From NCBI GenBank assembly GCA_902806275.1, contig CADCVY010000002.1, positions 1 through 34,702 of the forward strand: 34,702 nt of DNA. The letters are read 5' to 3'. Of the stretch, positions 13,108 to 30,218 are shown piece after piece. Each line of letters opens with the position of its first letter. Position 1 is the first letter of the stretch. The stretch comes from an uncultured Sphingomonas sp. (GTDB lineage: Bacteria; Pseudomonadota; Alphaproteobacteria; Sphingomonadales; Sphingomonadaceae). Position numbers and translations under genes: made by a program. Below the pieces are notes generated by a model. It saw nothing but the letters and a program-made list of their open reading frames with translations, searched no databases and had not been told where the DNA came from.

Positions 13108-13114
13108 GTCGCGT

Positions 13115-13233
13115 GCTTCGATACGGGCTCCCGCTGCGCGCAAGCCCTACTCAGCATGAGCGGTCACGGAGAAGGGAAGTCAAACCCCGGCCATCCTGAG
13201 TAGCCGCGCCAGCGGCGTGTCGAAGGACCGCTC
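13115..13233. repeat. Pair of inverted sphingomonad-type intergenic repeat units
   Basis: The unit at 13115-13163 (GCTTCGATACGGGCTC... ending TCAGCATGAGCGG) and the unit at 13191-13233 (CCATCCTGAG...TGTCGAAGGACCGCTC) are related and face each other, so the pair forms an imperfect palindrome. Each contains its own small hairpin, for example AGCCGC-GCCA-GCGGCG in the second. TCCTGAG and TGTCGAAGGA are also the ends of the palindrome inside valS, so the two belong to one repeat class. This and the next repeat fill the popZ-peptidase gap. Confidence 0.75.
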
Positions 13234-13239
13234 TAAATA

Positions 13240-13357
13240 CCTCTGGCTTTTGCAGGGGAGGGGGACCGCCGAAGGCGGTGGAGGGGTTCTCCGTACGGGA
13301 CCGAGAACCCCTCCACCAGCTTCGCTGGTCCCCCTCCGCACGAAATCGTGGGGAGGA
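13240..13357. repeat. Multi-hairpin palindromic repeat, copy 1
   Basis: Outer arms GGAGGGGGACC / GGTCCCCCTCC enclose three hairpins: ACCGCC-GAA-GGCGGT, a central 15-bp perfect stem GGTGGAGGGGTTCTC (13277-13291) with GAGAACCCCTCCACC (13303-13317), and ACCAGC-TTC-GCTGGT. A flanking hairpin lies on each side. The same layout recurs at 25677-25817 and 30086-30218 with different but still paired side stems. It ends 37 bp before the peptidase start. Confidence 0.85.
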
Positions 13358-13394
13358 TGGTTGCGCCTTGCCGCACCTTTGCTACCCCTCCATC

Positions 13395-15503
13395 ATGATC
13401 AAGCCCGCTTTGCTTTTCGCGGCGGCTGTTGCCGCGCTCTCCGCCGTCCCCGCTGATGCCCGCCCGATGACCGCGACCGACATGCACATGATGCACCGTC
13501 TCGGCGCGCCGGAAGTCTCGCCGGACGGCCGCTGGGCAGTGTTCACCGTCTCCGACACTGACCTTGCCTCCAACAAGCGCAACAACCGGCTCCATCTGCT
13601 CGACCTCACCCGCGCCGGCGCGGTGCCGCAGCCGATCGCGGGCGCCGACGGCGGGCACGATGCGGTGTTCGGACCCGACGGTGCGCTCTACTTCCTCAAA
13701 ACTGTGGGCGAGCGCACGCAGCTCCACCGCATGCCGGTCGGCAGCGCGGCAGTGGCTATCAGCGACTTCGGCGCGGAGATATCCGGCTTCAAGATCGCGC
13801 CCGGAGGCAACCGCGTGGTGGTCTGGGCCGACCGCCCCGACTGCCCCGACCTGGGCTGCGCGGCGACGACTTTCCCGCGCAAGCCGGAGGGCTCAGGCCG
13901 CACCTACGACGAATTGTTCGTGCGGCATTGGGACGCATGGGCCGAACCCGGCACGCGCTCGCGGCTTTACGCCTTCCCGCTGGCTAATGGCCGCGTCAGC
14001 GGTCCGGAAGTGCGGCTCACCGGCAACCTCGTCGGCGACACGCCGTCCAAGCCGTTCGGCGGCGGCGAGGAGATCGCGATCTCGCCGGATGGCCGCACCG
14101 TCTATTTCGCCCTGCGCGAAGCGGGGCGCATCGAAGCGACTTCGACCAACCTCGACATCTTCGCAGTGCCGGCGGACGGCAGCGCGCCGCCCTCTAATCT
14201 GACCGCCGCCAACGACGCCACCGACACGCTGCCGGCCGTCTCCCCCGATGGCCGCACCCTAGCCTACGTCGCCATGGCGCGGCCGGGCTATGAGGCGGAC
14301 CGGCAGGTCGTCATGCTGCGCGACCTCGCCACCGGCAATGTCCGCCCGCTGACCCAAAGCTGGGACCGCTCCGTCAGCTCGCTCGCCTGGGCTCGCGACG
14401 GCCGCAGCCTGCTGGTCACCGCCGGCGAAACGCTCGAGGAACCGGTGTCCCGGATCGACGCCGCGAACGGCCGGGTCACGCGCCTGACCCGCGAAGGCCA
14501 TGCCGGCAACGTCCGGCCGCTGCCCGACGGCGGCGCCCTGTTCACGTCCAACAGCGTGATGGCGCCCGACGATCTGTACCGGCTCGACGGACGCGGCCGC
14601 GTGCGCCAGCTGACCGCGGTGAACCGCGCGCTGCTCGCCCAGCTTGACCCCGTCACCTTCGACAAGTTCAGCTTCGCCGGAGCCAACAACGATCGCGTGT
14701 GGGGCATCAAGGTCAAGCCGGTGGTCAGCCGCACCCTTCCGATCGCGTTCGTTATCCACGGCGGCCCCCAGGGCAGCTTCGGCAACGCCTGGTCGTATCG
14801 CTGGAACCCGCGGCTGTTCGCCAGCGGCGGCTATGGGGTGGTGTCGATCGATTTCCACGGCTCCACGGGCTACGGCCAGGCCTTTACCGACTCCATCCGC
14901 AACAATTGGGGCGGCTGGCCGCTCGAGGACCTGCAGAAGGGCCTGGCCTTCGCCACCGCCAACGACCGCCAACTCGAAGCCAACAACGCTTGCGCGCTTG
15001 GCGCCAGCTACGGCGGCTACATGGTCAATTGGATCGCCGGACAATGGCCCGACCGCTTCAAATGCCTGGTCCAGCACGACGGCGTGTTCGACCAGCGGGC
15101 CATGGCCTACGAGACCGAGGAGCTGTGGTTCACCGAGTGGGAGCATGGCGGCAAGGCCTATTTCGAGGATCCCGCCGCATACGAGCGCTGGAACCCGGTC
15201 AATTACGTCACCCGCTGGAAGACGCCGATGCTGGTGATCACCGGCGAAAAGGACTTCCGCATCCCCTACACGCAGGGGCTCGCGAGCTTCACCGCGCTGC
15301 AGCGGCGGAACATTCCTTCGCGGCTGCTGGTGTTCCCGGACGAGAATCACTGGGTGCTCAAGCCGAAGAACTCGATCCAGTGGTATGACGAGGTGTTCGG
15401 CTGGCTGGGCCGCTGGACGGGGCAGGAGCCCGCGCCGGCGGTGACGAGTGCACCGTCTGATCTAGCCCCGGTAGCTACCGTCTCACCCGAACGCGGGAAA
15501 TAA
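13395..15503 (+). CDS. Exported S9-family (prolyl oligopeptidase-type) peptidase
   Basis: Starting at ATG 13395 the protein has 702 residues and a signal peptide ending near residue 23 (LLFAAAVAALSAVPADA). Residues ~30-430 form a beta-propeller with repeated SPDGR blades (VSPDGRWAVF, ISPDGRTVYF, VSPDGRTLAYV). The C-terminal alpha/beta hydrolase carries the triad Ser538 in GASYGGYM, Asp620 in GEKDFRIPY and His652 in DENHWVL, preceded by the oxyanion-region HGGPQGSFG. It should cleave short peptides in the periplasm, as a dipeptidyl or acylaminoacyl peptidase. The frame stays open upstream to 13278, but that part translates the repeat and is rejected. The gene separates popZ from valS and is bounded by repeats on both sides. 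Confidence 0.93.
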   Translation: MIKPALLFAAAVAALSAVPADARPMTATDMHMMHRLGAPEVSPDGRWAVFTVSDTDLASNKRNNRLHLLDLTRAGAVPQPIAGADGGHDAVFGPDGALYFLKTVGERTQLHRMPVGSAAVAISDFGAEISGFKIAPGGNRVVVWADRPDCPDLGCAATTFPRKPEGSGRTYDELFVRHWDAWAEPGTRSRLYAFPLANGRVSGPEVRLTGNLVGDTPSKPFGGGEEIAISPDGRTVYFALREAGRIEATSTNLDIFAVPADGSAPPSNLTAANDATDTLPAVSPDGRTLAYVAMARPGYEADRQVVMLRDLATGNVRPLTQSWDRSVSSLAWARDGRSLLVTAGETLEEPVSRIDAANGRVTRLTREGHAGNVRPLPDGGALFTSNSVMAPDDLYRLDGRGRVRQLTAVNRALLAQLDPVTFDKFSFAGANNDRVWGIKVKPVVSRTLPIAFVIHGGPQGSFGNAWSYRWNPRLFASGGYGVVSIDFHGSTGYGQAFTDSIRNNWGGWPLEDLQKGLAFATANDRQLEANNACALGASYGGYMVNWIAGQWPDRFKCLVQHDGVFDQRAMAYETEELWFTEWEHGGKAYFEDPAAYERWNPVNYVTRWKTPMLVITGEKDFRIPYTQGLASFTALQRRNIPSRLLVFPDENHWVLKPKNSIQWYDEVFGWLGRWTGQEPAPAVTSAPSDLAPVATVSPERGK

Positions 15504-15510
15504 CCGCGTT

Positions 15511-15600
15511 CGTCATGCTGAACTTGTTTCAGCATCCATTCTCCCTCCAGCGACGCAGTGTCCGCGGAGGGATGGACCCTGAACCAAGTTCAGGGTGACG
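15511..15600. repeat. Two-hairpin intergenic repeat upstream of valS
   Basis: TGCTGAA-CTTG-TTTCAGCA at the left and ACCCTGAAC-CAA-GTTCAGGGT at the right are two hairpins. The sequences between them (CCATTCTCCCTCC and GGAGGGATGG) pair with each other, so the whole unit is an imperfect palindrome. It begins 7 bp after the peptidase stop and ends 47 bp before valS. The rest of the gap shows nothing clear. Confidence 0.7.
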
Positions 15601-15647
15601 CATCCCACGGTTGTGTGCGTGGCTATGCATCCGCTAACCGCCCGCCG

Positions 15648-18362
15648 ATGACCGAACTGCCGAAGACCTTCGAGCCGGGCGCCATCGAGGCCCGCTGGTA
15701 CCAGCATTGGGAAAGCCGCGGGCTGTTCCGCCCCGAGCGCCCGGACGCAAGCCCGTGGACCATCGTCAACCCGCCGCCCAACGTCACCGGCTCGCTCCAC
15801 ATCGGCCACGCGCTCGACAACACGCTGCAGGACATCATGACCCGCTACGAGCGGATGCGCGGCAAGGACGCCTTGTGGGTGGTCGGCACCGACCATGCCG
15901 GCATCGCCACCCAGATGGTGGTCGAGCGCCAGCTCGAAGAGCGGCAGGATAAGCGGACCAACTACGGCCGCGACGAGTTCGTCGCCAAGGTCTGGGAGTG
16001 GAAGGAAGAAAGCGGCGGCCAGATCACGCGCCAGCTCCGCCGCCTCGGCTGTTCGATGGACTGGTCGAACGAGCGCTTCACCATGGACGAGGGCTTCACC
16101 CGCGCCGTGCTCAAGGTGTTTGTCCAGCTTCACCGCGAAGGCCTGCTCTACCGCGACAAGCGGCTGGTGAACTGGGACCCCAAGTTCCAGTCGGCGATCA
16201 GCGACCTCGAGGTCGAGACCCGCGAGGTCCAGGGCAAGTTCTGGCACCTCCGCTATCCGCTGGCCGACGGCAGCGGGACGATCTCGGTAGCGACCACGCG
16301 GCCTGAAACCATGCTCGCTGACATGGCGGTCGCGGTGCACCCGGACGACGAGCGCTACCGCGACCTAGTCGGCAAGCAGGTGCGGCTGCCGATCGCCGGC
16401 CGGCTGATCCCGATCATCACCGACGAGCATGCCGATCCGGAGCTTGGATCAGGCGCGGTGAAGATCACGCCGGGCCATGATTTCAACGACTTCCAGGTCG
16501 GCAAGCGCGCCGGGTTCAAGCCGTCCGAGATGCTCAACATGCTCGATGTCCAAGCGCGGGTGGTGCAATGCGGTGGCATTCCGGACGAGCTGCTCGGGCT
16601 CGACCGCTTCGACGCCCGCAAGCGAGTGGTCGAACTGCTCGAAGCCGAAGGCGCGTTGGACCGGGTCGAGGACCGCCTGGTAGCTACCCCGCACGGCGAC
16701 CGCTCGGGCGTGGTGATCGAGCCGTGGCTGACCGACCAATGGTACGTCGACGCCGCGACGCTCGCCAAGCCGGCGATCAAGGCGGTGCGCTCGGGCGCGA
16801 TCAAGATCGTGCCGAAGACGTGGGAGAAGACGTGGTTCAACTGGCTGGAGAACATCCAGCCCTGGTGCGTCTCGCGCCAGCTATGGTGGGGGCACCGCAT
16901 CCCGGCGTGGTACGACGAGGACGGCCAGGTTTATGTCGCCGAAAGCAAGGACGAGGCTCGCGCGGCCGCAGGCGGCAAGCCCTTGCGTCAGGACGAGGAC
17001 GTCCTCGACACCTGGTTCAGCTCGGCCTTGTGGCCGTTCGCGACGATCGGCTGGCCCGAGCAGACGCAGGAGCTCAACCGCCACTACCCCAACGACCTGC
17101 TGATCTCCGGCTTCGACATCATCTTTTTCTGGGATGCGCGCATGGCGATGCAGGGCATCCACTTCATGGGGGAGGTGCCGTGGAAGACGCTCTACCTCCA
17201 CGGCCTGGTGCGCGATGCGGCTGGGCAGAAGATGTCCAAGTCCAAGGGCAACACCGTCGACCCGCTCGGGCTGATCGACCGCTACGGCGCCGACGCGCTG
17301 CGCTTCACGCTGGCGGCGATGGAGAGCCAGGGCCGCGACATCAAGCTCGATGAAAAGCGCGTCGAGGGCTACCGCAACTTCGCGACCAAGCTGTGGAACG
17401 CCGCGCGCTTTCTGCAGATGAATGGGGTCGGCGCCAGCGACAGCATCGCCGCGCCGGAGGCCAAGTTGCCGGTCAACCGCTGGATCATCGGCGAGGTGGT
17501 CGAAACGCTTGGCCGCCTCAACAAGGCGTTGGACGAGCTGCGCTTCGACGGCATGGCCGACGCCATTTACCACTTTGCCTGGGGCACCTTCTGCGACTGG
17601 TACGTGGAGTTGATCAAGGGAGAGCTTACCCCCGCAGCCGTTCGTCCTGAGCCTGTCGAAGGACTGTCCTCCTCTTCTTCTGGCGATCAGGAAGAAAGTG
17701 CAGTCCTTCGACAAGCTCAGGACGAACGGGTGGAGGAAACGAGAAAGGTGGCAGCCTGGGCGTTCGACCAGGTCCTGGTCATGCTCCACCCGTTCATGCC
17801 CTTCGTCACCGAGGAGCTGTGGAACGCGAGCGAACGCCCGTACGAGCTGATCGTCGCCAAATGGCCCAAGCCTGAAGCGCAGGCCGATGCCGGCGCCAAG
17901 GCGGAAATCGAATGGCTGATCCGCCTGGTCAGCGAAGTCCGGTCGGCCCGCACCGAGCTGAACGTGCCTCCCTCGGCCAAGCTGCACCTGTTCGCCACCG
18001 ATGCAGGCGACGAGATTGCAGCGCGGCTGGACCGGCAGTTTGCAACGGTGTCGCGCCTGGCGCGGCTTGAATCCATTCAGCTGTCGGCGTTTCCTGGCAC
18101 CGGCGCCGCGCAGGTCGTCGTCGATGGCGTGACCTATGCTTTGCCGCTTGAAGGCGTCATCGATCTTGCTGCCGAGCGCGACCGCCTCGCCAAGGGGATC
18201 GCTGCGGCGGAGAAGGAGCGGGACAGTCTCGCCGGACGGCTGTCCAACCCGAACTTCACGGAGCGGGCCAAGCCCGAAGCGGTGGAAAAGGCTCGCGCCG
18301 ACCATGGGGCGAAATCGGCCGAGGCCGAGCGGCTGCGAGCGGCGCTGGAGCGCTTGGGATAG
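15648..18362 (+). CDS. valS: Valyl-tRNA synthetase
   Basis: The 904-residue enzyme charges tRNA-Val. It has the class I HIGH motif at residues 51-54 ([12 protein letters not shown]), the editing domain with [17 protein letters not shown], the KMSKS motif at 528-532 ([16 protein letters not shown]), the anticodon-binding domain ([14 protein letters not shown]) and a C-terminal coiled coil (about 845-904, [20 protein letters not shown]). I start it at ATG 15648 ([17 protein letters not shown]); the frame is open to 15558 but that stretch only translates the upstream repeat. Residues about 664-694 (VRPEPVEG...LRQAQDER) are encoded by a palindromic repeat inserted in frame in the loop after [11 protein letters not shown], where other ValRS have a short connector. 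Confidence 0.97.
17638..17729. repeat. Palindromic repeat inserted in frame within valS
   Basis: Two 29-bp arms, 17638-17666 and 17701-17729, are inverted copies with a single mismatch. Both contain CGTTCGTCCTGAGC and TGTCGAAGGACTG or their complements. The 34-bp centre is Ser/Glu-coding and partly paired (TTCTTC/GAAGAA). The element adds about 31 residues without breaking the frame. Its ends match the intergenic repeat class at 13115-13233. Confidence 0.9.
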
Positions 18363-18364
18363 TG

Positions 18365-18440
18365 TTCCCCGGCGTAGGCCGGGTCCGGGAGCGCGTAAGC
18401 GCTGCTTCGCATCGCCCTAAGCCCCGGCCCGCGCCGGGGA
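18365..18440. repeat. GC-rich palindromic repeat between valS and the lipid kinase; possible bidirectional terminator
   Basis: The left arm (TCCCCGGCGTAGGCCGGGTC, 18366-18385) pairs with the right arm (GCCCCGGCCCGCGCCGGGGA, 18421-18440). CCCCGGC-CCGC-GCCGGGG (18422-18439) is a strong hairpin on its own, and AGCGC-GTAA-GCGCT lies in the middle. It occupies nearly the whole 79-bp gap between two convergent genes. A terminator role is plausible, but no T-run follows. Confidence 0.65.
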
Positions 18441-18441
18441 G

Positions 18442-19338
18442 CTAGCTAGTGCGCGGCGCCGCCACCGTCACCGCGTCCGGGATCACGCTGACCTCGAACG
18501 GCGTTTCCGGGCCCAGCTCGCCGTCGATCGACACCCGCATCCGCGGCCTGGTGGTCACCCGCATCTTGGTCCCGTGAAACTCGCGCACCGTGCCCTTGCG
18601 CGCCTCCAGCTTGGCGGCGCTGGCAAAATAGCTCCAGCCAAGGCCGAACACGCTGCGGCCCTGAACCGCCTGGATCACGACTTCGCCGCTGTGCAGGTCG
18701 GCGCTTTCGATCAGCTCCATGCCGCCGTGGAAGCGGCCGTTGGCGATCCGCGCTTCAGTCGCCCATAGGCGATGGGTGCCGCGCTCGTCTTCGATCTTGA
18801 GGCGGAACGCCTTGAAGCTCGCCGCCGACCAGCCGGCCCACAGCAGATAACCCGTGCGGCCGAGCAGCTTCTTCAAGCTCTGCGGCACGGTCTCCGCCAC
18901 CACCGGCGCCAGGCCTAGCGCCGCGTTGTTGAGGAAATAATCGCCGTTGATCGCGGCCAGATCGACCTTGCGCGGCTCGCCATGGGCAATCACGTCGATG
19001 GCGCCGTCGAGGTCGAGTGGAAAGTCGAGCGTGCGGGCGAAGCTGTTCGCCGTGCCGAGTGGAAGGAAAGCGAATACGGTGTTCGTTCCCAGGAAATAAT
19101 CGATGGTCTCGGACAAAGTCCCGTCGCCCCCGCCGACGATCACCATCGGCGCGCGGTCAATGGCGGCGCTGACTTCGCCGGCAAGCGTCTCCGGCTCGTC
19201 GATCGCGCGCGCGTCGATGAGCTCGACGCCGGCCATCTCGAGCTTGGCGCGCGCTTCGTCGAACGCCTCGGCGCCGCGGCGGCTGGCGGTGTTGACGATC
19301 AGGATCGCCTGACGGGGAAGTTTCTCGCGCACGCTCAC
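18442..19338 (-). CDS. Diacylglycerol/lipid kinase family protein
   Basis: The 298-residue protein belongs to the DagK_cat/YegS-like lipid kinases: ILIVNTASRRG near the N-terminus, the nucleotide motif VIVGGGDGTLSETI (about 67-80), then FLPLGTANSFARTLDFP, and a C-terminal beta-rich domain with VSIDGELGPETPFEV. It should phosphorylate diacylglycerol or a related lipid at the inner face of the membrane, using ATP. The start codon is GTG with no clear Shine-Dalgarno. It is convergent with valS across a palindromic repeat and divergent from hemB, 73 bp away. The lipid substrate is unknown. Confidence 0.9.
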   Translation of the reverse strand: MSVREKLPRQAILIVNTASRRGAEAFDEARAKLEMAGVELIDARAIDEPETLAGEVSAAIDRAPMVIVGGGDGTLSETIDYFLGTNTVFAFLPLGTANSFARTLDFPLDLDGAIDVIAHGEPRKVDLAAINGDYFLNNAALGLAPVVAETVPQSLKKLLGRTGYLLWAGWSAASFKAFRLKIEDERGTHRLWATEARIANGRFHGGMELIESADLHSGEVVIQAVQGRSVFGLGWSYFASAAKLEARKGTVREFHGTKMRVTTRPRMRVSIDGELGPETPFEVSVIPDAVTVAAPRTS

Positions 19339-19368
19339 TTAGCGGTGGGTAGCAACAAGAGTTCCGGT

Positions 19369-19396
19369 CGTCTCGACTTCGCTTGACACGAACGGG
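19369..19396. repeat. Single arm of a sphingomonad-type repeat upstream of hemB
   Basis: CGTCTCGACTTCGC followed by TTGACACGAACGGG resembles one arm of the class seen in valS (which ends in GACGAACGG). The opposite arm is absent, so this looks like a degraded copy. It contains a TTGACA that mimics a -35 box. Confidence 0.5.
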
Positions 19397-19411
19397 TAAG
19401 GCGAGGGCGAA

Positions 19412-20404
19412 ATGACCGCCTCCTTTCCCGCCCTCCGCATGCGCCGCGGCCGCTCCGCCCCATGGATGCGCGAGATGCTGGCCGAGCACCGGCTGCACCC
19501 GAGCGACCTCATCTGGCCATTGTTCATCTGCGACGGCGCGGGTTGCGAGGAGCCGATCCGATCGCTTCCGGGGGTGAGCCGGTGGACGGTCGACCGGCTC
19601 GGCCAGCGGGCGCGGCTGGCGGTGGACGCGGGGATCCCGTGCGTGGCGCTGTTCCCGAACACGCCGCAGGGCCTCCGCACCGAGGATGCACGCGAGGCGC
19701 TGAACCGCGAGAACCTGATCTGCTCGGGCATCAAGGCGATCAAGGACGCGGTGCCGAACATCGGCGTGCTGACCGACGTCGCGCTCGACCTCTATACCAG
19801 CCACGGCCACGACGGACTGACCGAAGACGATGGCCAGGTCGTCAACGATCATACGGTCGAAATCCTCGCGCACCAGGCGCTGGTCCAGGCCGAAGCCGGG
19901 GCCGACATCGTCGCCCCGTCCGACATGATGGACGGCCGCGTCGCGGCGATCCGCGATGCCTTGGAAGGCGAGGGCCACCAGCATGTCGCAATCATGGCCT
20001 ATGCCGCCAAATATGCCTCGGCATTCTACGGCCCGTTCCGCGATGCGGTGGGCTCGTCCGGGCGCCTGAAGGGCGACAAGCGCGGCTATCAGATGAACCC
20101 GGCCAACGTCGACGAAGCCCTGCGCGAGGTCGAACTCGACCTTGCGGAGGGCGCCGACATGGTGATGGTCAAGCCCGGCCTGCCCTACCTCGACGTGCTG
20201 GCCCGCGTGAAGGACGCGTTCGGCGTTCCGACCTTCGCCTACCAGGTGAGCGGCGAATATGCGATGATCGAGGCCGCCGCGGCCGCGGGTGCAGGGGACC
20301 GCGACGCCCTGATGCTGGAGACGTTGCTGGCCTTCAAACGCGGCGGCGCGACGGGGGTGCTCAGTTACCACGCACTCGACGCTGCCCGGCTGATCAATGG
20401 TTGA
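19412..20404 (+). CDS. hemB: Delta-aminolevulinic acid dehydratase (porphobilinogen synthase)
   Basis: This 330-residue enzyme condenses two 5-aminolevulinate molecules to porphobilinogen in haem synthesis. The two Schiff-base lysines are Lys200 in MAYAAKYAS and Lys254 in MVMVKPGLPY. The segment DVALDLYTSHGHDG replaces the cysteine-rich zinc site of other HemBs, so this is the zinc-independent, magnesium-responsive type common in alphaproteobacteria. Other family blocks present are DLIWPLFI, PGVSRW, SDMMDGRV and YQVSGEYAMI. A GCGAGG element lies just upstream of the ATG. The stop overlaps the GNAT start by 8 bp, indicating coupling. Confidence 0.97.
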   Translation: MTASFPALRMRRGRSAPWMREMLAEHRLHPSDLIWPLFICDGAGCEEPIRSLPGVSRWTVDRLGQRARLAVDAGIPCVALFPNTPQGLRTEDAREALNRENLICSGIKAIKDAVPNIGVLTDVALDLYTSHGHDGLTEDDGQVVNDHTVEILAHQALVQAEAGADIVAPSDMMDGRVAAIRDALEGEGHQHVAIMAYAAKYASAFYGPFRDAVGSSGRLKGDKRGYQMNPANVDEALREVELDLAEGADMVMVKPGLPYLDVLARVKDAFGVPTFAYQVSGEYAMIEAAAAAGAGDRDALMLETLLAFKRGGATGVLSYHALDAARLING

Positions 20405-21825: not shown

Positions 21826-21868
21826 TCTCCAGACCTAAATTGCCGCTGTTATTCGCAAAGGTGCCGGC

Positions 21869-22911: not shown

Positions 22912-24007
22912 CAGCCAGCGAGGCTGAGCGGCCCACGACCGGCAGCCGCGCCCGCAAGCCCCCGGGCAGCGGGCGGACGATCGCCGCGCGGGCCTGGTGC
23001 CAGAAGGCGGACAGCAGAAGCAGCGCCGAGCCGATCACCAGCGCCGTCAGCGCGACATTAAGCTCGACAGCGCCGAACCGCTTCAACAGGTCGGACATCG
23101 CCCACAGCACGTAGGCCAGCGACGACACCAGCAAGGCACGGCGGTCGATCGCTAGGGCGGTTAGGCCAAGCGCAACGTAAAGCAGGACCACGACCGCGCC
23201 TTCGACGAGGCTTGCGTTGCCGTCGGTCAGGCCGAGCAGGGTGAAGACCGGGTGCACGATCATCGGCGCTGCCAGCAGGTGTAGCCAGAAGGCGACGTCC
23301 GAGCGCCGGGTCAGCCGCTCGCGGTCGCTGCTGTCCCACCACATGGCGAACAGGAACATGCCGATGCCGAGCACCAGCACGATGGAGAGGAAGATCGGCC
23401 GCAGTTTCTCGCCGGCGTCCCCGACGACGCTAAGCACAACCCCCAGAACGATGCCCGCGACGGCCCCGGCGCCGGCGGCAACGGTGATCGGAACGCGGAA
23501 GCGGCGCCAGTGCAGCCAGGCGGCCCCGGCGGCGATCGCCGCGGCCACCGCGCCGAGGATACCGCCAAGCTGGGCATTGTTGTTGAGCTGCTCGTCGCCG
23601 ACGATCTGGGCAAGGATCATCGCACTGGCCGCGAAAACGCCGCCGACGAAGCCGAGCAGCAGGATGATCGACGGCAGCGCCATGCGCCGCTTAGCCGTAA
23701 AGAACAGCGCCAGCGCCCACGACGCAGCGGCGACCGCAAGCGGGCCGAGGAACGATGGGCCTTCCCCCTCCATGTCGAGGCCGAGCGCGGAGCCGGCGCG
23801 ATGACCGATCCAGGCGAGCGCGAACAGCAGGATCACCGCGGCGATCGACACGAAGATGTCGTTGAAGCCGGTCAGCAGCCGGAACTGCTCCTCGTCGGGG
23901 ATGACCGTCGAGCGCTGGCTCTCGACATGCGCACGCAAGGCGTCGGCCGCTTGCGGCGTGATCGCGCCCGCGGCGACGGCGTCGTCGAGCTCTTGTTGGC
24001 TGTACAT
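22892..24007 (-). CDS. DUF2157-domain membrane protein
   Basis: Starting at ATG 24007, behind a strong GGAGGG, the protein has 371 residues. The N-terminal ~60 residues are soluble and helical (MYSQQELDDAVAAGAITPQAADALRAHV, typical of DUF2157). They are followed by roughly ten membrane segments, for example VSIAAVILLFALAWIG, PSIILLLGFVGGVFAAS, ITVAAGAGAVAGIVLGVV and LNVALTALVIGSALLLLSAF. Function is unknown. The frame stays open upstream to 24121, but the Shine-Dalgarno and the family start favour 24007. An inverted repeat at 24037-24056 lies 30 bp upstream. Confidence 0.87.
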   Translation of the reverse strand: MYSQQELDDAVAAGAITPQAADALRAHVESQRSTVIPDEEQFRLLTGFNDIFVSIAAVILLFALAWIGHRAGSALGLDMEGEGPSFLGPLAVAAASWALALFFTAKRRMALPSIILLLGFVGGVFAASAMILAQIVGDEQLNNNAQLGGILGAVAAAIAAGAAWLHWRRFRVPITVAAGAGAVAGIVLGVVLSVVGDAGEKLRPIFLSIVLVLGIGMFLFAMWWDSSDRERLTRRSDVAFWLHLLAAPMIVHPVFTLLGLTDGNASLVEGAVVVLLYVALGLTALAIDRRALLVSSLAYVLWAMSDLLKRFGAVELNVALTALVIGSALLLLSAFWHQARAAIVRPLPGGLRARLPVVGRSASLAASQPAA

Positions 24008-24036
24008 CGGGCTGCCCTCCAGGAAAGTGCCACTTG

Positions 24037-24056
24037 CGTAACGAAGGTGTGTTACG
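24037..24056. promoter_or_regulatory. CGTAAC/GTTACG inverted repeat, candidate operator
   Basis: CGTAAC (24037-24042) and GTTACG (24051-24056) are perfect 6-bp arms with an 8-bp spacer, in the 106-bp gap between the divergent DUF2157 and SRAP genes. The shape suits a dimeric repressor. No LexA-like GTTC-N7-GTTC box is seen for the SRAP gene. Confidence 0.4.
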
Positions 24057-24113
24057 TAGTCAATACAGCAGTGCGGTTGACGAGCAGCGCTGGGCACTCG
24101 AAGGCGACAGCGG

Positions 24114-24716
24114 ATGTGCAATCTCTACACCATGACTGCGACCGTTGACGAAATGCGGCGGGTGTTCGGCCCCTTCGAGGGCGACACCACCAACCTGCCG
24201 CCGTTTGACGAGATCTACCCCGGCTACAGCGCGCCGGTGCTGCGGCGGACCGATGCCGGCGGGCTGAGCCTCGAAATGATGAAATGGGGCTTTCCCGGGC
24301 CGGCAAGCGCGGGGTCGCGGGCGATCACCAACGTCCGCAACCTCGACAGCCCGTTCTGGCGGACGGCGCTCACCGATCCGAAGCGGCGCTGCATCGTCCC
24401 GGTCACCCGCTTTTGCGAGTGGACCGCCGAGCCGGACCCCGCGACCAGGCGCAAGGGGAAAGTGTGGTTTGGGCTGCACGAGGATGCGCATCCGTTGTTC
24501 GCCTTTGCCGGCATCTGGCGCCCGGGGGCGGAAGGGCCGTTCATGGCGTTCCTGACCTGCGCGGCCAACCGGGTGGTCGGCGCCGTCCACCCAAAGGCCA
24601 TGCCGGTGATGCTGACGCCGGGCGCCGATGTCGCGCGTTGGCTCGACGAGGAGCGGGCGGACGCTTGCAGCCTTGCCGTGCCTTTCGCGGATACGGCGAT
24701 GCGTCGCGTGAGTTAA
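24114..24716 (+). CDS. SOS-response-associated (SRAP/YedK/HMCES) protein
   Basis: The 200-residue protein is an SRAP-family protein, which covalently traps abasic sites in single-stranded DNA through Cys2. The sequence begins MCNLYTM, so Cys2 is present after Met removal. Further family blocks are MMKWGFPGP, an ITNVRNLDSPFW segment in place of the usual NARSET, RCIVPVTRFCEW with the active-site Glu, and the VHPKAMPVML block with the conserved His. The NARSET block is therefore atypical, as in a known sphingomonad subgroup. It is divergent from the DUF2157 gene; the small protein at 24753 follows 36 bp later on the same strand. Confidence 0.9.
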   Translation: MCNLYTMTATVDEMRRVFGPFEGDTTNLPPFDEIYPGYSAPVLRRTDAGGLSLEMMKWGFPGPASAGSRAITNVRNLDSPFWRTALTDPKRRCIVPVTRFCEWTAEPDPATRRKGKVWFGLHEDAHPLFAFAGIWRPGAEGPFMAFLTCAANRVVGAVHPKAMPVMLTPGADVARWLDEERADACSLAVPFADTAMRRVS

Positions 24717-24752
24717 GGCACACGAAGCTCATTCGGACAGGAGATACCCAAC

Positions 24753-25151
24753 ATGGCGAAAAAGGCATCGGGCAAGGGCGAGAACGGCAAACGCGACAAA
24801 GGCAACGGGTCCCAAACCCAGTCGCGCGCAGTTGCAGTGCAGGCGAGCGACGGCGGCTCGGATGACGAAGGTCGCACCCAGGACGGCATGGGGGAAGCCT
24901 TGATCAAGCTGCTGCAAAGCCCGCTGGTCGCCGATCTGCTTGCCGTTGCCGCGACCGCGGCGCTGGCGGCGCTTGCCGAGCATGGCTTCAGCAGCCGTGG
25001 CGCGCCCGAGAACGCTAGCGGCAAGCGAGCAGGCCGGGCGGTCAAGGAGGCCGGCAAGGCCGCGGCCGCCGCGATCGGCCGTCGCATCAGCAACGAATTC
25101 CAGGAGATCAAAGCCGCGTCGAAGAAGCCGATGGCCGACGCAGAAGCGTAA
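24753..25151 (+). CDS. Small Lys/Ala-rich protein of unknown function
   Basis: This 132-residue protein begins with a charged, disordered stretch (MAKKASGKGENGKRDKGNG). A helical segment around residues 46-76 (GEALIKLLQSPLVADLLAVA, then ATAALAALAEHG) is hydrophobic enough to be a membrane or packing helix, and the C-terminus is another Lys/Ala-rich helix. I recognise no family. An AGGAG Shine-Dalgarno at 24738-24742 supports translation. It overlaps the convergent rsmD gene by 44 bp. The pattern faintly resembles histone-like or phasin-like proteins, but that is speculation. Confidence 0.75.
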   Translation: MAKKASGKGENGKRDKGNGSQTQSRAVAVQASDGGSDDEGRTQDGMGEALIKLLQSPLVADLLAVAATAALAALAEHGFSSRGAPENASGKRAGRAVKEAGKAAAAAIGRRISNEFQEIKAASKKPMADAEA

Positions 25152-25668
25152 GGCGGGCGCGGCCGACGTCGCGCACGGCTTCAGTGGTGAAGGTGCCCGG
25201 TTCGACGTCGTCGGTGCGGCTGGTTTCGACGCTGAGCCAGCCGCCGGGCGCGAGCCATTCGGCCTTGGCGATGGCGGCGACCGCGTCGGTACCCGAGCCG
25301 CTTGCATAGGGCGGGTCGGCGAACACGAGGTCGAACGGGTCGGAGCGAGGCAGCGACAAGGCCGAGCCGCCGAGCACCCGAATCTGGGCGGTTGCGCCCA
25401 GCCGCTCGGCGTTGCGCCTGATCGTCGCGGCCGCGCGGGCATCGCTTTCCACGAAGGTGGCTGAAGCGGCGCCGCGCGACAGGGCCTCGAGCCCAAGCGC
25501 GCCGCTGCCGGCGAACAGGTCGGCCACGCGCAAGTCCTCGAAGCTGCCGAGCCGGCTGGCGAGCATGGAGAACAAAGTCTCGCGGACGCGATCGGCGGTC
25601 GGCCGGGTCGACCCTCCCGGCGGCGCGTCGAGCGAACGCCCGCGCCACGCGCCCGCGATGATCCTCAT
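25108..25668 (-). CDS. rsmD: 16S rRNA (guanine966-N2)-methyltransferase
   Basis: The 186-residue enzyme methylates G966 of 16S rRNA using SAM. It begins with the family signature MRIIAGAWRGR and TRPTADRVRETLFSML. It has the SAM loop DLFAGSGALGLEALSRGA (residues 50-67) and the N6/N2-amine motif DPPY (118-121). Its Shine-Dalgarno, GGGAGGA, is the end of the multi-hairpin repeat that separates it from rluB upstream. Its 3' end overlaps the convergent small gene by 44 bp. Confidence 0.95.
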   Translation of the reverse strand: MRIIAGAWRGRSLDAPPGGSTRPTADRVRETLFSMLASRLGSFEDLRVADLFAGSGALGLEALSRGAASATFVESDARAAATIRRNAERLGATAQIRVLGGSALSLPRSDPFDLVFADPPYASGSGTDAVAAIAKAEWLAPGGWLSVETSRTDDVEPGTFTTEAVRDVGRARLTLLRRPSASSTRL

Positions 25669-25676
25669 GCTTCAAA

Positions 25677-25683
25677 TCCTCCC
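25677..25683 (-). promoter_or_regulatory. rsmD Shine-Dalgarno supplied by a repeat
   Basis: On the minus strand GGGAGGA lies 8 bases before the rsmD ATG, and is also the terminal hairpin strand of repeat copy 2. It may be sequestered when that hairpin forms. Confidence 0.6.
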
Positions 25684-25817
25684 TGCCGGCATAGCCGGTG
25701 GGGAGGGGGACCGCTCAGCGGAGCTGAGTGGTGGAGGGGCCAAACGGCGCGAGGCCCCTCCACCATCGAACCCTCCGTTCGATGGTCCCCCTCCCCATCG
25801 CTGCGCGATCGGGAGGA
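25677..25817. repeat. Multi-hairpin palindromic repeat, copy 2 (rluB-rsmD gap)
   Basis: Outer arms GGGGAGGGGGACC / GGTCCCCCTCCCC pair over 13 bp. Inside are ACCGCTCAGC-GGA-GCTGAGTGGT (one wobble), a central 12-bp stem GGTGGAGGGGCC / GGCCCCTCCACC, and ACCATCGAAC-CCTCC-GTTCGATGGT. Flanking hairpins are CCGGC-ATA-GCCGG at the left and ATCGC-TGC-GCGAT at the right. It fills almost all of the 155-bp rluB-rsmD gap. Confidence 0.9.
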
Positions 25818-25823
25818 GCTTTG

Positions 25824-26636
25824 TCACCGCAGCCCCTTGCGGAACTCGGCCAGCTGTTCGCTCGGCACCTCGTCGACGTTGCCGGGCTCCAGCCCGTCCA
25901 GCGTCAGCGGGCCGTAGGACGTGCGGATCAGCCGCGAGACCTGCAGGTCGAGGTGCGCGAGGACGTTCCGGACCTCGCGGTTCTTGCCCTCGGTGAGGCT
26001 CATCTCGATCCAGCAATTGCGGCCGGTGCGGCGCTCCATGTTGGCGTTGATCGAGCCGTAGCGCACGCCGTCGATGGTCACGCCCTCGGCGAGGTCTTCC
26101 AGCTGATCCTGCGAGACAGCGCCGAAAGCGCGGGCGCGGTAGGTGCGGACCACGCCGGTGCTCGGCAGTTCGAGCTGCCGCTTGAGCTCGCCGTCGTTGG
26201 TCAGCAGCAGCAGCCCTTCGGTCATATAGTCGAGGCGGCCGACCGGCATGACGCGCGACATTCCCGGAGGCAGGCGGTCGTAGATGGTCGCGCGGCCTTT
26301 CGGGTCGAAAGCGGCGGTGAGCGTGCTCGGCGGCTTGTAGAACCGGTGCAGGCGCGTGGCCTTGGCCGGGCGCACCGGGCGGCCGTCGACGGTGAGGCCG
26401 ATGACATCCTCGAGCAGGGTCGCGGGCGTGGTGATCTTTTCCCCGTTGAGCGCGATGCGTCCTTCGGCGATCATGCGTTCGATCTCGCGGCGCGAAGCGA
26501 TGCCGGCGCGGGCCAGCAGCTTGGCGATGCGCTGCGGCCCGCCGTCGCTTTTCCGTGGTGCGGCAGGCACGGTCCGCCCGGCTCGGCGTGGCCGCGGCAC
26601 TGGAGTGCGCTTCGTTCGTTGCGGGGGCAGAGTCAT
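25824..26636 (-). CDS. rluB: 23S rRNA pseudouridine synthase (RluB-like)
   Basis: The 270-residue protein has a basic N-terminal tail, an S4 RNA-binding domain (about 35-80, RIAKLLARAGIASRREIERM) and a RsuA/RluB catalytic domain. The catalytic Asp136 is in PVGRLDYMTEGLLLLTNDG. KPPSTLTAAFDPKGRATIYD and EGKNREVRNVLAHL are further family blocks. It isomerises a uridine in large-subunit rRNA; the exact site (2605 by analogy) is inferred. It precedes rsmD on the same strand across repeat copy 2. The start lies 14 bp from the divergent response regulator. Confidence 0.93.
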   Translation of the reverse strand: MTLPPQRTKRTPVPRPRRAGRTVPAAPRKSDGGPQRIAKLLARAGIASRREIERMIAEGRIALNGEKITTPATLLEDVIGLTVDGRPVRPAKATRLHRFYKPPSTLTAAFDPKGRATIYDRLPPGMSRVMPVGRLDYMTEGLLLLTNDGELKRQLELPSTGVVRTYRARAFGAVSQDQLEDLAEGVTIDGVRYGSINANMERRTGRNCWIEMSLTEGKNREVRNVLAHLDLQVSRLIRTSYGPLTLDGLEPGNVDEVPSEQLAEFRKGLR

Positions 26637-26650
26637 TGGCCGGGGTCACG

Positions 26651-27088
26651 ATGCTGTTCGGGAGAAGGAAGTCGGTCGTCAAGCGGATCCTCATCGTCGA
26701 GGATGAGCCGCTGACGGCGTTCGACAACGAAAACCTGCTCGGGGACGCGGGGTACGAGATCGTCGGCACGGTCGACGACTTCGAAGAAGCCTTGCAGGTG
26801 CTCGACCGCGAGCAGGTCGACCTGATCCTCAGCGACGTCCGCCTGCGCAGCCAGCAGACCGGCATCGACCTTGCCCGCGAAGCGAAGGCGCGGGGCATCC
26901 CGACCCTGTTTGCAACCGGGCACCCGTATCCCGGCGCCGAGAGCATCGCCGTCGGCTGCCTTACCAAGCCCTATTCGGACCGGCAGCTCAAAAGCGCCAT
27001 CCAGGCGGTCGACCGCCACCTCCAGCGGCAGAAGGTCAAGCCGCTCAAGGGCCTCGAACTGTTCGCCCACGGCGACCGGCAGAGCTGA
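26651..27088 (+). CDS. Single-domain response regulator
   Basis: From ATG 26651 the protein has 145 residues and consists of a receiver domain with a short basic tail. Motifs are RILIVEDEPLTAFD (acidic pocket), Asp62 in LILSDVRL as the phosphorylation site, and Lys106 in CLTKPYSDRQL. There is no output domain, so it probably acts in a phosphorelay or by protein contact. No histidine kinase is in the window. The frame remains open upstream to 26555, but that part is antisense to rluB and matches nothing. Only 14 bp separate it from rluB, so its promoter must lie within the rluB 5' end or overlap it. Confidence 0.88.
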   Translation: MLFGRRKSVVKRILIVEDEPLTAFDNENLLGDAGYEIVGTVDDFEEALQVLDREQVDLILSDVRLRSQQTGIDLAREAKARGIPTLFATGHPYPGAESIAVGCLTKPYSDRQLKSAIQAVDRHLQRQKVKPLKGLELFAHGDRQS

Positions 27089-27145
27089 ACCGGCACTAGC
27101 CACGCGGCCCACGGCTGCTAGCATGGCACGCTCAACGGAGGGCGC

Positions 27146-28879
27146 ATGGCCGCGAACGCGATTTCAGCACAAGGCGAGACGAAATCGAAGGGCTGGGGGC
27201 TGCTCAAGGTGGCTTTGCGCAACCGCAAGACCGGCATCATGCTGGTGTTCGGCTTTGCCGCCGGCCTGCCGTACACCCTGCTGATCGGCACGCTCAATGC
27301 CTGGCTCGGCGAGTGGGAGATCGACCTGGCCACGATCGGCGTGCTGTCGTGGATCGGCCTTGCCTACGCGTTCAAGTTCCTGTGGTCGCCGCTCGTCGAC
27401 CGCGTTCGCCTGCCCGGACTGGAGCGGCTGGGGCGGCGGCGAAGCTGGCTGCTGGTCTGCCAGCTGCTGCTGACCGCGACCTTCTTCGCCTTGTCGCTGT
27501 CCGACCCGCGGCTGCAGCTCGGCTGGTTCGCGCTGGTGGCGGTGATCGGCGCCTTTGCCTCGGCGACGCAGGACGTGGTGATCGACGCCTGGCGGATCGA
27601 CGTTGCGGATGAGAAGGCGCCGGTCGAGATCCTCTCGTCCATCTACCAGTTCGGCTACCGCATCGCGGCGCTGATCGGCGGCGCCCTCGCGCTGGTGCTG
27701 TCCGAGCGGGTTTCGTGGCCCACCGTCTACGGCATCATGGGCGCTTTCATGGCGCTGACGGTCGTCGCGACCCTGTTCGCGCCCGACACGCCGCGCGATG
27801 CCATCGAGCGCGAGCAGAGCGCATTGCGCCAGGTGGGGGCGATCGATCCCAAGCTACGGGCGATAGGGTTGGCGATCGTCGGGCTCGGCTGGGCGTGGGC
27901 GATCTGGACGGTCGGGACCTTCATGGCGCGAGTGCTCGGAGGTTCGATCGATCCCGTCACTGGCAAGCCGCCCGCCACCGGCGACTTCACCAAGCTCTAT
28001 GGCCCTTGGATCGTGGTTGCGACGGTGATCCTGCCGGCGGTCGTCGCGGCGGTGTTCAACTGGCTCAAGGCGCGCAAGGGCTACATCCTGACTTCGGACG
28101 AGCCAGCCACCAGCGGTGGGGAACGGGCGGCCGATCATGCCTATTCGGCGCTGATCCTGCCGCTCGGCGAACTGGTCCGGCGGATCGGCTGGGGCGTGAT
28201 CATCGTGCTTGGGCTGATTCTCAGCTACCGCATCACCGACCTGATCTGGGGATCATTCGCTTTCCCCTTCTACCTTCAGGAGCTGAAATACACCGGCGAC
28301 GAGGTCGCGTTCGCGTCCAAGATCTTCGGCGTGTTCATGACCATGGCCGGGATCGCCATCGGCGGCATCCTGTTCGCGACGATCGGCCGGATGCCGACCC
28401 TCCTGATCGGGGCAATCGTCGCGGCCGCGAGCAACCTACTTTACGCGGACCTTGCCGCGGGTGCGCCATTTATCGACTCGTTCGCCCGCACCTTCGGCCT
28501 CGACGCGTTCGGACAGGATCTGCGGATGGTTCGGCTGCTGATCGCCATCTCGGGTGAGAATATCGCCGCCGGGCTCGCCGGAGCCGCGTTCGTCGCTTAT
28601 CTGTCTTCGATCACTTCGCGCGAGTTCAGCGCCGTTCAATATGCGCTACTTTCCTCGCTAACCTTCCTGGTCGGGTCGCTCGGCCGGGCGGCGATCGGCG
28701 AGCGGATCGAGCAAGTCGGCTACGCACCGGTGTTCCTGCTGTGTGCGGCGATCGGCATGATCGCAGTGGCCTTCGTCGTGCTCGAATGGGCGCGAATCGC
28801 GTGGGCGGACCGCAGGAAAGGCAGCGGTGACGTGCTCGCTGCCGATGCCGCGAGGGCGGTCGAGGGCGACACCGCTTAG
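27146..28879 (+). CDS. ampG: AmpG-family muropeptide/MFS transporter
   Basis: The 577-residue membrane protein matches the AmpG branch of the major facilitator superfamily: MLVFGFAAGLPYTLLIGTLN, SWIGLAYAFKFLWSPLVDR, GRRRSWLLVCQLLL, ASATQDVVIDAWRID and AALIGGALALVLSE. AmpG imports anhydro-muropeptides for peptidoglycan recycling. It is longer than E. coli AmpG (about 490 residues), with a long central part between the two halves (about 260-320) as in other alphaproteobacterial members. A GGAGGGC element precedes the ATG. It follows the response regulator by 57 bp and shares TTAG with the convergent folC at the stop codons. Substrate is by family analogy. Confidence 0.9.
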   Translation: MAANAISAQGETKSKGWGLLKVALRNRKTGIMLVFGFAAGLPYTLLIGTLNAWLGEWEIDLATIGVLSWIGLAYAFKFLWSPLVDRVRLPGLERLGRRRSWLLVCQLLLTATFFALSLSDPRLQLGWFALVAVIGAFASATQDVVIDAWRIDVADEKAPVEILSSIYQFGYRIAALIGGALALVLSERVSWPTVYGIMGAFMALTVVATLFAPDTPRDAIEREQSALRQVGAIDPKLRAIGLAIVGLGWAWAIWTVGTFMARVLGGSIDPVTGKPPATGDFTKLYGPWIVVATVILPAVVAAVFNWLKARKGYILTSDEPATSGGERAADHAYSALILPLGELVRRIGWGVIIVLGLILSYRITDLIWGSFAFPFYLQELKYTGDEVAFASKIFGVFMTMAGIAIGGILFATIGRMPTLLIGAIVAAASNLLYADLAAGAPFIDSFARTFGLDAFGQDLRMVRLLIAISGENIAAGLAGAAFVAYLSSITSREFSAVQYALLSSLTFLVGSLGRAAIGERIEQVGYAPVFLLCAAIGMIAVAFVVLEWARIAWADRRKGSGDVLAADAARAVEGDTA

Positions 28880-30081
28880 TCGGGCGTCTGATGATACGCC
28901 GCGAGGGCTTTGCCGGCGAGGTACAACGAACCTGCGACCAGCCGCGGTGCCGGCAGGTGTGCCAGCGCTTCACTCAGCGAGGACGACGCGCGGCCGCCGA
29001 AGCGTTCGGCCAGGTGGGCCGGATCGTGGTGCTCGTGGCCGGGCACGGGAACGAAGGTCAGCGACAATGCGTGCGGGGCCAGGGCGGCGACGATCGCTTT
29101 CGCGTCCTTGTTGGCTAGGATTCCGAGCACCAGGTGCATCGGCTGACGCTCGGTTAGTAGTTGCCCAAGCGCCTGCGCCGCCGCCGGGTTGTGGGCGCCA
29201 TCGACCCAGGTGGCCGGATCACCGCTTAGCTGCTGGAAGCGCGCGGGCCATTGCGTCGTGGCGGTCGCGCGCAGGAAGAGCTGACGATCGACGGACAGCG
29301 CATCTTGCGCGCCCAGCATTGCCCAGGCGAGCCCCGCATTCTGTTTCTGGTGCCGGCCCGCCAACCCCGGCCTCAGATCGGGATCGATCATCCAGTCGCG
29401 GCCTTCCAGAAGCAGCGGCGCGCCGCGCTCGGCGGCGGTACGGAAGATCGCCGCTTCGGCTTCCGGTACCTGCGCGAGGCTTACCAGCGGTACGCCGGCT
29501 TTGGCGATGCCCGCCTTTTCGCCAGCGATCGCAACGATATCGCCGCCGAGGAACTGCTGGTGATCGAGGCCCAGACTGGCGATGCCAGTGACCAGTGGAT
29601 GCTCGATGACGTTGGTGGCGTCGAGCCGGCCGCCAAGCCCGACTTCGAGGATGCAGGCGTCTGCCGGCGCTCGCGCGAAGGCGAGAAAGGCGACGGCGGT
29701 GGTGACCTCGAAGAAGCTTGCTTCGATGTCGGCGCCGGCGTCCAGCACTTCGGTCAGCAATGCCGCCAGTGCGTCGTCGCCGATCAACTTGCCGGCCATG
29801 CGGATGCGTTCGTTGAAGCGCACCAGGTGGGGGCTGGTGAAGACGTGGACACGGTAGCCGGCCGCCTCAATCGCGGCGCGGAGGAAAGCGCAGGTTGAGC
29901 CTTTGCCGTTGGTGCCGGCGACGTGGAACACCGGCGGCAGCCGGTCCTGCGGGCGGCCGAGGCGGTCGAGCACGACGGCGATGCGATCAAGCCCGAGGCG
30001 GTCGCCGCCGGGCGAGAGCAGGGACAGGCGGTCAAGCTGCGCTTGCACCCGCGGGTCGGTGGAGGTGGCGGAGTCCGGCAA
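28876..30081 (-). CDS. folC: Bifunctional folylpolyglutamate/dihydrofolate synthase
   Basis: The 401-residue Mur-ligase-family enzyme adds glutamate to folates. It shows the P-loop HVAGTNGKGST (GTNGKGS at 56-62), FTSPHLVRFNERI, EVGLGGRLDATNV, LDHQQFLGGD and the C-terminal WVDGAHNPAAA. It starts at TTG 30081. The Shine-Dalgarno GGGAGGA, 4 bases upstream, is the terminal part of repeat copy 3. It is the last gene of the lapA-pyrF-accD-folC run. Its end overlaps ampG by 4 bp. Confidence 0.95.
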   Translation of the reverse strand: MPDSATSTDPRVQAQLDRLSLLSPGGDRLGLDRIAVVLDRLGRPQDRLPPVFHVAGTNGKGSTCAFLRAAIEAAGYRVHVFTSPHLVRFNERIRMAGKLIGDDALAALLTEVLDAGADIEASFFEVTTAVAFLAFARAPADACILEVGLGGRLDATNVIEHPLVTGIASLGLDHQQFLGGDIVAIAGEKAGIAKAGVPLVSLAQVPEAEAAIFRTAAERGAPLLLEGRDWMIDPDLRPGLAGRHQKQNAGLAWAMLGAQDALSVDRQLFLRATATTQWPARFQQLSGDPATWVDGAHNPAAAQALGQLLTERQPMHLVLGILANKDAKAIVAALAPHALSLTFVPVPGHEHHDPAHLAERFGGRASSSLSEALAHLPAPRLVAGSLYLAGKALAAYHQTPD

Positions 30082-30085
30082 TCAA

Positions 30086-30092
30086 TCCTCCC
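30086..30092 (-). promoter_or_regulatory. folC Shine-Dalgarno supplied by a repeat
   Basis: GGGAGGA on the minus strand lies 4 bases before the TTG start of folC and is the end of repeat copy 3. No other Shine-Dalgarno is available. Confidence 0.6.
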
Positions 30093-30218
30093 TGTCGCGC
30101 AGCGATGGGGAGGGAGATTGCTGCCAAAGGCAGTGGTGGAGGGGCCTCTCGCCACGGGGGGCCCCTCCACCATGCTGCGCATGGTCCCCCTCCCCACGAG
30201 CTGCGCTCGCAGGGAGGA
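30086..30218. repeat. Multi-hairpin palindromic repeat, copy 3 (accD-folC gap)
   Basis: The central stem GGTGGAGGGGCC / GGCCCCTCCACC is identical to that of copy 2. The side hairpins are TTGCTGCC-AAA-GGCAGTGG (with wobble pairs) and ACCATGC-TGC-GCATGGT. The outer arm GGGGAGGGAGATT pairs imperfectly with GGTCCCCCTCCCC. Flanking hairpins have loops GCA (left) and TGC (right). It occupies nearly the whole 146-bp gap. Confidence 0.9.

Follow-up and report, generated by a model that had tools for sequence, protein, structure and literature searches.

A dispersed family of paired palindromic repeats with strand-polar C(GNA)G hairpin loops in Sphingomonas and other alphaproteobacteria

The DNA analyzed here is a 34,702-nucleotide stretch of contig CADCVY010000002.1 from an uncultured Sphingomonas sp. 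(assembly GCA_902806275.1), hereafter the window. It contains three copies of a palindromic element, 118-141 bp long, which an earlier note on this DNA had described and whose sequences we recovered at 13240..13357, 25677..25817 and 30086..30218 (copies 1, 2 and 3). The three copies belong to a dispersed repeat family, in which the inner hairpins change in sequence and nevertheless stay paired. Copy 1 has a DUF2497 gene (12697-13107, + strand) and an S9 peptidase gene (13395-15503, + strand) as neighbors, and copy 2 a Cons_hypoth95 methyltransferase gene (25108-25668, - strand) and a pseudouridine synthase gene (25824-26636, - strand). Copy 3 fills the gap between a Mur-ligase-domain gene (28876-30081, - strand) and a carboxyl transferase gene (30228-31289, - strand). 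These families come from Pfam matches; the latter two are folC-like and accD-like, respectively.

The full layout, clearest in copy 2, reads TCCTCCC, outer hairpin, GGGGAGGGGGACC, inner hairpin A, GGTGGAGGGG, spacer, CCCCTCCACC, inner hairpin C, GGTCCCCCTCCCC, outer hairpin, GGGAGGA. In this complete copy, the left side of the terminal stem (TCCTCCC, 25677..25683) is followed by the left outer hairpin (25684..25699), the purine arm GGGGAGGGGGACC (25700..25712, + strand), inner hairpin A with the purine-strand loop C(GGA)G (25713..25729, + strand), the central stem GGTGGAGGGG/CCCCTCCACC with its apical spacer (25730..25764), inner hairpin C with a 5-nt loop other than GNA (25765..25783, - strand), the second arm GGTCCCCCTCCCC (25784..25796, - strand), the right outer hairpin (25797..25810), and the right side of the terminal stem (GGGAGGA, 25811..25817). 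Copy 3 is also complete and shares the terminal stem TCCTCCC/GGGAGGA with copy 2. Its left arm (30107..30119, + strand) has diverged to GGGGAGGGAGATT from GGGGAGGGGGACC, which corrects the earlier statement that the outer arms keep their sequence throughout. It continues with inner hairpin A, loop C(AAA)G (30120..30134, + strand), the central stem and apical spacer (30135..30171), inner hairpin C, which reads ATGC(GCA)GCAT on the - (purine) strand (30172..30182), the second arm GGTCCCCCTCCCC (30183..30195, - strand), and the right outer hairpin with terminal GGGAGGA (30196..30218). The left end of copy 1 is degenerate and lacks TCCTCC. Its left half (13255..13286, + strand) comprises the arm GGGGAGGGGGACC, the inner hairpin GCC(GAA)GGC and the core GGTGGAGGGG; its inverted right half (13308..13337, - strand) comprises the core, an inner hairpin that reads AGC(GAA)GCT on the - strand and an arm shortened to GGTCCCCCTCC.

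A lack of further copies would have refuted the earlier note; they were found in the genome of origin, in genus and class genomes and in named contigs. The source genome is a draft assembly, 72% complete, whose 114 contigs total 1.62 Mb. Copy 1 as a query matched 24 places in it (both strands counted, the query being a palindrome), and it holds the exact central stem 8 times and 20 exact half-elements (9 forward and 11 reverse). Among 61 genus genomes, the central pattern occurred in 15, the own genome included, with a maximum of 27 copies in genome G046, and the reversed pattern in none. A locus was available for inspection in 14 of these 15 carriers, and each such locus contained at least one half plus its arm. 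Exact halves were present in 8 of 385 sampled alphaproteobacterial genomes, which belong to the same family and two others, and the reversed half pattern was present in none of the 385; G139, a genome rated 100% complete, has 36 exact halves. An exact central stem also matched at least 118 loci in named contigs. Organism names were seen for 80 of these loci and included Sphingomonas, Sphingobium, Sphingosinicella, Porphyrobacter, Caulobacter, Brevundimonas and Phenylobacterium; Streptomyces was among the matches listed, with a central match devoid of arms. When 120 central matches were parsed, 75 had both arms, 27 had one and 18 had none; some of the latter are chance matches (e.g., Streptomyces) and others are apparently diverged or contig-end copies (L080 and L116). 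Copy 2 further matched three plasmid records (two from Sphingomonas and one from Novosphingobium) and none of the phage records searched.

For the statistics, the named loci, chosen by an exact central stem and thus biased toward intact copies, were rescanned with mismatches allowed; 101 of them contribute. Together with genus halves taken from stretches fetched around matches, this yielded 342 halves, or 335 once identical ones were removed (named contigs supplied 219 of these, the genus and the window 116). They form 144 complete inverted pairs and 47 single halves, many of which have a decayed partner. The unit consists of two inverted halves with two hairpins apiece, separated by a spacer that varies, each half reading TCCTCC, outer hairpin, GGGGAGGGGGACC, inner hairpin, GGTGGAGGGG. 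The spacer measures 14-34 bp in 142 of the 144 complete elements, these being the ones with a spacer of at least 12 bp. A second half type, GGAGGTGGC-hairpin-GACGGAGGGG, which reads CCGTC on its other strand, accounts for 11 halves in the loci examined, 8 of them with C(GNA)G, and 2 mixed dimers were found versus 147 first-type dimers (from more loci than the 144-pair count). Since this second type and the mixed dimers occur, the half is an exchangeable unit, as in bacterial interspersed mosaic elements (BIMEs) and repetitive extragenic palindrome (REP) doublets forming hairpins (REPINs). At L139 and L147, a further hairpin (TCGAAGAGAG..CTCTCTTCGA) replaces part of one arm, which makes nested palindromes.

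Statistical evidence for change that preserves pairing comes from the inner hairpins, from the spacer (its first four pairs) and from the two base pairs that adjoin the ends on the outside. The variable pairs of the inner hairpins in the 335 halves comprise 1355 Watson-Crick, 84 G-T, 29 A-C and 44 other combinations, and 21 of the 29 A-C pairs lie at the seventh pair, close to the loop of long hairpins. As a control, 3' halves were dealt anew among copies of the same length in 1000 deals. Fully paired hairpins numbered 133/139 in the 11-base class (re-dealt mean 28.6, maximum 45), 72/74 in the 9-base class (mean 31.7), 29/36 in the 15-base class (mean 5.2), 11/23 in the 17-base class (mean 1.6) and 26/27 in the 18-base class (mean 5.1). 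By a looser test, 23/29 halves were fully paired in the own genome and 45/48 in G046. In 26 distinct genus sequences, 98.9% of cells were paired, 27 cells had changed on both sides (6.8 when shuffled) and covariation reached 0.476 (0.184 when shuffled), none of 500 shuffles reaching such values. Hence the claim that the side hairpins vary and still pair, first drawn from three copies, now holds statistically for the inner hairpins of a large collection, and the side stems of further copies mostly remain paired. The folds of the outer hairpins were crude (240 of 974 pairs unpaired) and were not used as evidence.

Beyond the central stem, the first four spacer pairs were complementary in 115, 88, 73 and 66 of 142 elements against 41.9, 37.7, 35.8 and 38.4 by chance; the fifth and sixth pairs (34 and 47 of the 142 elements) were not above chance. 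In G046, 17 of 23 complete elements have the arm variant AACC on both sides and 4 have GACC on both sides, with 1 mixed and 1 other variant. The two base pairs immediately outside TCCTCC/GGAGGA matched in 67 and 54 of 106 elements against 41.5 and 32.9 (z 5.4 and 4.9). At the ninth base outside the ends, complementarity of the flanks was seen in 43/106 elements against 27.8 shuffled (z 3.3), for which we have no explanation. The two inner hairpins were identical in 1 of 144 elements, where random re-pairing within groups gives only about 3.6 in total; we do not claim from this that a difference between the arms guards against a long perfect palindrome.

The surprising part of the element is a DNA mini-hairpin with strand polarity. 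C(GNA)G occupies the center of the inner hairpin on the purine strand in 276 of the 335 halves; a single half has it on the other strand. Among the 290 odd-length hairpins, which have three-base loops, the strictly centered motif occurs in 251 and its complement in none; as a control, perfect triloop hairpins elsewhere in the same named loci show C(GNA)G on either strand in 26 of 506 cases. Four of the six inner hairpins in the window have a GNA loop. The first variable pair is A-T in 159 cases, G-C in 78, G-T in 75 and A-C in 3, where independence among these four classes expects 120, 39, 114 and 42. A-C is thus avoided far more than G-T, which suggests that the purine strand itself must fold. 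GNA loops closed by at least two G-C pairs are described as unusually stable, nuclease-resistant DNA mini-hairpins (PMC4686876). Promoters of phage N4 offer a parallel: the promoter of the virion RNA polymerase has a small DNA hairpin on one defined strand, for which a loop 5' G, a loop 3' A and a closing C-G pair are reported as required for extrusion, with extrusion seen at subphysiological supercoiling and in the cell (PMC4496689). Our element may also extrude from supercoiled DNA in the cell; the N4 hairpin belongs to a phage promoter and not to a dispersed repeat, and the likeness is in the loop alone. The earlier note had left a folded RNA, a cruciform DNA and a renewal of palindromes side by side. 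Loop polarity and A-C rarity make the folding of a single DNA strand more probable than RNA or a purely mutational renewal.

Comparison of orthologous gaps, as proposed in the earlier note, revealed the element in some genomes and its absence from others at the same junction. The copy 2 junction was resolved in 39 of 71 genus genomes; 5 carry the element and have 130-161 additional bases between the flanking sequences; the 34 genomes without it have -1 to 30 there, in most cases 2. At the copy 3 junction, 28 of 30 loci were resolved, 4 with this element, 18 with 5-17 extra bases and 6 with other palindromic inserts of 109-133 extra bases. The carriers are scattered on a tree of one gene from 29 genomes (midpoint root, without support values), the neighbors G062 and G066 have different inserts in the same gap, and element copies at the same junction in different genomes differ in their side hairpins. 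We read this pattern as repeated gain; at this divergence, loss or replacement may also account for it.

The six other inserts at the copy 3 junction (L178, L181, L182, L183, L184 and L196), from six relatives, raise the possibility that palindromic repeats of several kinds have a hot spot in this gap. Other palindromes also occur in the window. A different repeat type (..GCCCTACTCAGCATGAGCGG / CCATCCTGAGTAGCCGCG..GTGTCGAAGGACCG) lies immediately 5' of copy 1, at 13100-13240. Another inverted repeat, with 32-nt arms that are 94% complementary, lies at 17635-17732 within the frame 15558-18362. This frame has matches to valyl-tRNA synthetase families and is not interrupted, and the repeat looks like an in-frame palindromic insertion.

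Gene starts and stops around the elements were assigned with a custom codon score, which placed 87 of 259 ends at a gene start and 122 at a gene stop and left 50 undecided. A start codon follows GGAGGA after 1-13 nt at 49 of the 87 start-facing ends, and a stop codon ends 0-20 nt ahead of the element at 106 of the 122 stop-facing ends. In G055, for instance, an end that precedes a start codon reads GGGGAGGACCTAATG. Both ends were called in 77 of 142 elements, which sit in 47 co-directional, 23 convergent and 7 divergent gene pairs. The terminal GGAGGA, often at Shine-Dalgarno distance, may explain why insertion is tolerated in tight gene pairs. This link to ribosome binding is weak because the closeness could reflect the tight gaps and the sequence also lies in a predicted hairpin. 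The element may also enter genes: at L281 (G000:C34:3100-3800), two halves stand back to back in or beside a frame that resembles isoleucyl-tRNA synthetase (PQWFIAMD).

REP-associated tyrosine transposases (RAYTs) were considered as mobilizers. The corresponding Y1 family, PF01797, matched in 7 of 41 relatives, one of which (G005) is among the 25 genus genomes in that sample, and in 2 of 17 carrier genomes (G070 and G088). No Y1 match of the RAYT type was found in 17 of the 20 carriers tested, including G008, G009 and G139, some of the carriers being incomplete drafts, and none of the searched element motifs occurred beside the Y1 genes of the carriers G070, G088 and G005 (L317, L316 and L039). 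A RAYT as the mobilizer is thus not supported.

We consider it moderately probable that this is a nonautonomous DNA element, palindromic and dispersed, with a REPIN-like mode of action, and that selection keeps it foldable. Absence from a junction would then be the older state. Inside the cell, the purine strand would fold as DNA, either while single-stranded or when negative supercoiling extrudes it, and its C(GNA)G mini-hairpins would be recognized by an enzyme or host factor. Selection for folding would keep the stems paired while the letters drift or swap between copies. Copies are retained mostly beside gene ends, in tight gaps. A bolder version, which we put forward tentatively as possible, is that the mobile elements depend on strand-specific, supercoil-extrudable C(GNA)G mini-hairpins, that an enzyme other than Y1 reads their shape and loop instead of the stem sequence, and that the ends double as ribosome-binding sequences, which would allow entry into packed gene pairs.

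Several points weigh against this interpretation. Nested hairpins, as the earlier note had drawn them, appear in the predicted minimum-energy structure of copy 2, whereas for copies 1 and 3 the prediction is largely a single long hairpin in which the arms pair with each other; in these two copies, the long single hairpin is predicted to compete with the many-hairpin fold. Two of five covariation measures (pair or type counts) were ordinary, with 34 and 102 of 500 shuffles as high. The arms say little on pairing because they hardly vary: the same change is seen in both arms at 25 positions and in one only, or differently, at 41. The polarity could partly be a sequence preference instead of a consequence of folding. 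As for movement, three carriers do have a Y1 match, and no mobilizer was found, PF01797 being the sole transposase family screened. A duplication of 1-2 nt may accompany insertion, 2-nt repeats occurring 12 times against 8.6 +- 2.4 by chance. Finally, T is enriched just outside the ends, where 8 nt contain 2.6 T on average compared with 1.5 at nt 13-20, and at least five T in 8 nt occur at 17/241 ends against 0/241, which can be used by a reading in terms of RNA.

Such a reading, in which the element acts as RNA at gene ends through 3'-end stabilization, as an RNase target, by transcription attenuation or by translation attenuation that hides the terminal GGAGGA, is the strongest alternative, and we judge it unlikely. 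Besides the T enrichment, it draws on the distribution of co-directional, convergent and divergent gene pairs given above and on stems that are very stable as RNA. Each window copy folds better as RNA than all of its 200 dinucleotide shuffles (+ strand z -7.2, -8.7 and -10.2 for copies 1 to 3), and the same is true of folding as DNA (z -7.0, -8.5 and -8.7). However, any transcript reads one inner hairpin from the purine side and the other from the pyrimidine side, and C(GNA)G and the avoidance of A-C are confined to the purine side. GNRA and UUCG tetraloops are the usual stable RNA loops, and the 290 odd-length hairpins have three-base loops instead. At the gathering score, Rfam returned only a tRNA in the window and no family in 5 further loci; matches below this threshold at copy 2 were to microRNA models. 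No terminator-like site was found at 25500-26000 of the window, and an intrinsic terminator made of a GC stem and a T tract is not supported, despite the enrichment of T and the 17 T-rich ends among 241.

A mutational origin of the compensatory changes, in which one arm of a stem is rewritten from the other by template switching at quasi-palindromes and folding is not selected, appears improbable. Both sides of a pair change together, and recurrent hairpins are common to different copies and genomes, as if swapped as units. Since both polarities are present in every element, however, this process would be expected neither to favor G-T over A-C nor to tie GNA to one strand with respect to the arm. 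A classical miniature inverted-repeat transposable element (MITE), whose terminal inverted repeats a DDE transposase would use to move it, is very improbable. The dispersal, the size in the window, the orthologous sites without the element and the inverted repeats TCCTCC/GGAGGA with two covarying pairs beyond them all accord with it, but direct repeats of 3-8 nt flank none of the 106 elements with exact ends, where chance alone would give 1.9 at a length of 3 nt; PF01797 is the one transposase family that was screened. Least credible is a form of the CcrM-associated intergenic repeat (CIR) of Caulobacter: both are intergenic inverted repeats of more than 100 bp in Caulobacter-related genomes, and GAGTC/GACTC lies at the spacer of some Caulobacter copies, but GANTC occurs in only 30 of 144 complete elements with their 30-nt flanks, below the letter-shuffled mean of 52.9 (range 38-73).

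If the preferred interpretation of a foldable, REPIN-like DNA element is true, this family provides a large natural sequence set in which selection sees folded single-stranded or cruciform DNA, not RNA. It would also open a route toward an unknown mobilizer that recognizes hairpins and explain how repeats enter abutting gene pairs. Annotators would be cautioned that, in these genomes, the elements may be the source of many gaps and start signals.

No description of the element was found in the open-licence literature searched, also when element oligonucleotides served as queries, and the accessible text of PMC4741004, PMC10969869 and PMC12306157 does not mention it. Among known repeats, CIRs are similarly long intergenic inverted repeats in Caulobacter and its relatives. 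In the accessible part of their description, they consist of two arms joined by a linker without pairing of the 5' and 3' ends (PMC2229807); end-to-end pairing is constant in our element, and GANTC, the CcrM site, is not. The CGTC REPs resemble the element in several respects: as described by Di Nocera (2013, PMC3733652), they are mostly alphaproteobacterial (S. chlorophenolicum and S. wittichii are listed), mostly form head-to-head dimers, commonly form heterodimers in several families, lie mostly between co-directional or convergent genes and have no known transposase. They differ in their CGTC tag, 8-9-bp stems and 4-5-nt loops; our element has CACC ahead of the hairpin, fewer variable pairs plus ACC/GGT and 3-nt loops. 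Membership in the CGTC REPs was rejected, with CGTC in the conserved parts of 3/335 halves (TGTC and CCTC variants uncounted), mostly 3-nt loops and 3-7 variable pairs. REPINs and BIMEs share with the element an inverted palindromic pair with a spacer, location between genes, dispersal, the pair as the main unit, and alternative long-hairpin and clover folds (PMC3116915). In line with the REPIN definition, 144 inverted dimers occur among the 335 halves and 209 of the 259 ends lie beside a gene start or stop; the GTAG tag or its complement was found in the conserved parts of none of the 335 halves. REPINs and BIMEs are associated with RAYTs (PMC3116915; Bertels and Rainey, 2011), unlike the element in the 17 of 20 carriers that have no Y1 gene. 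Compared with that description, two hairpins per half, purine arms, C(GNA)G loops and Shine-Dalgarno-like ends are the element's own. The element, distinguished from CIR by comparison of descriptions, appears to be related to the palindromic repeats known from bacteria, as a form not described so far.

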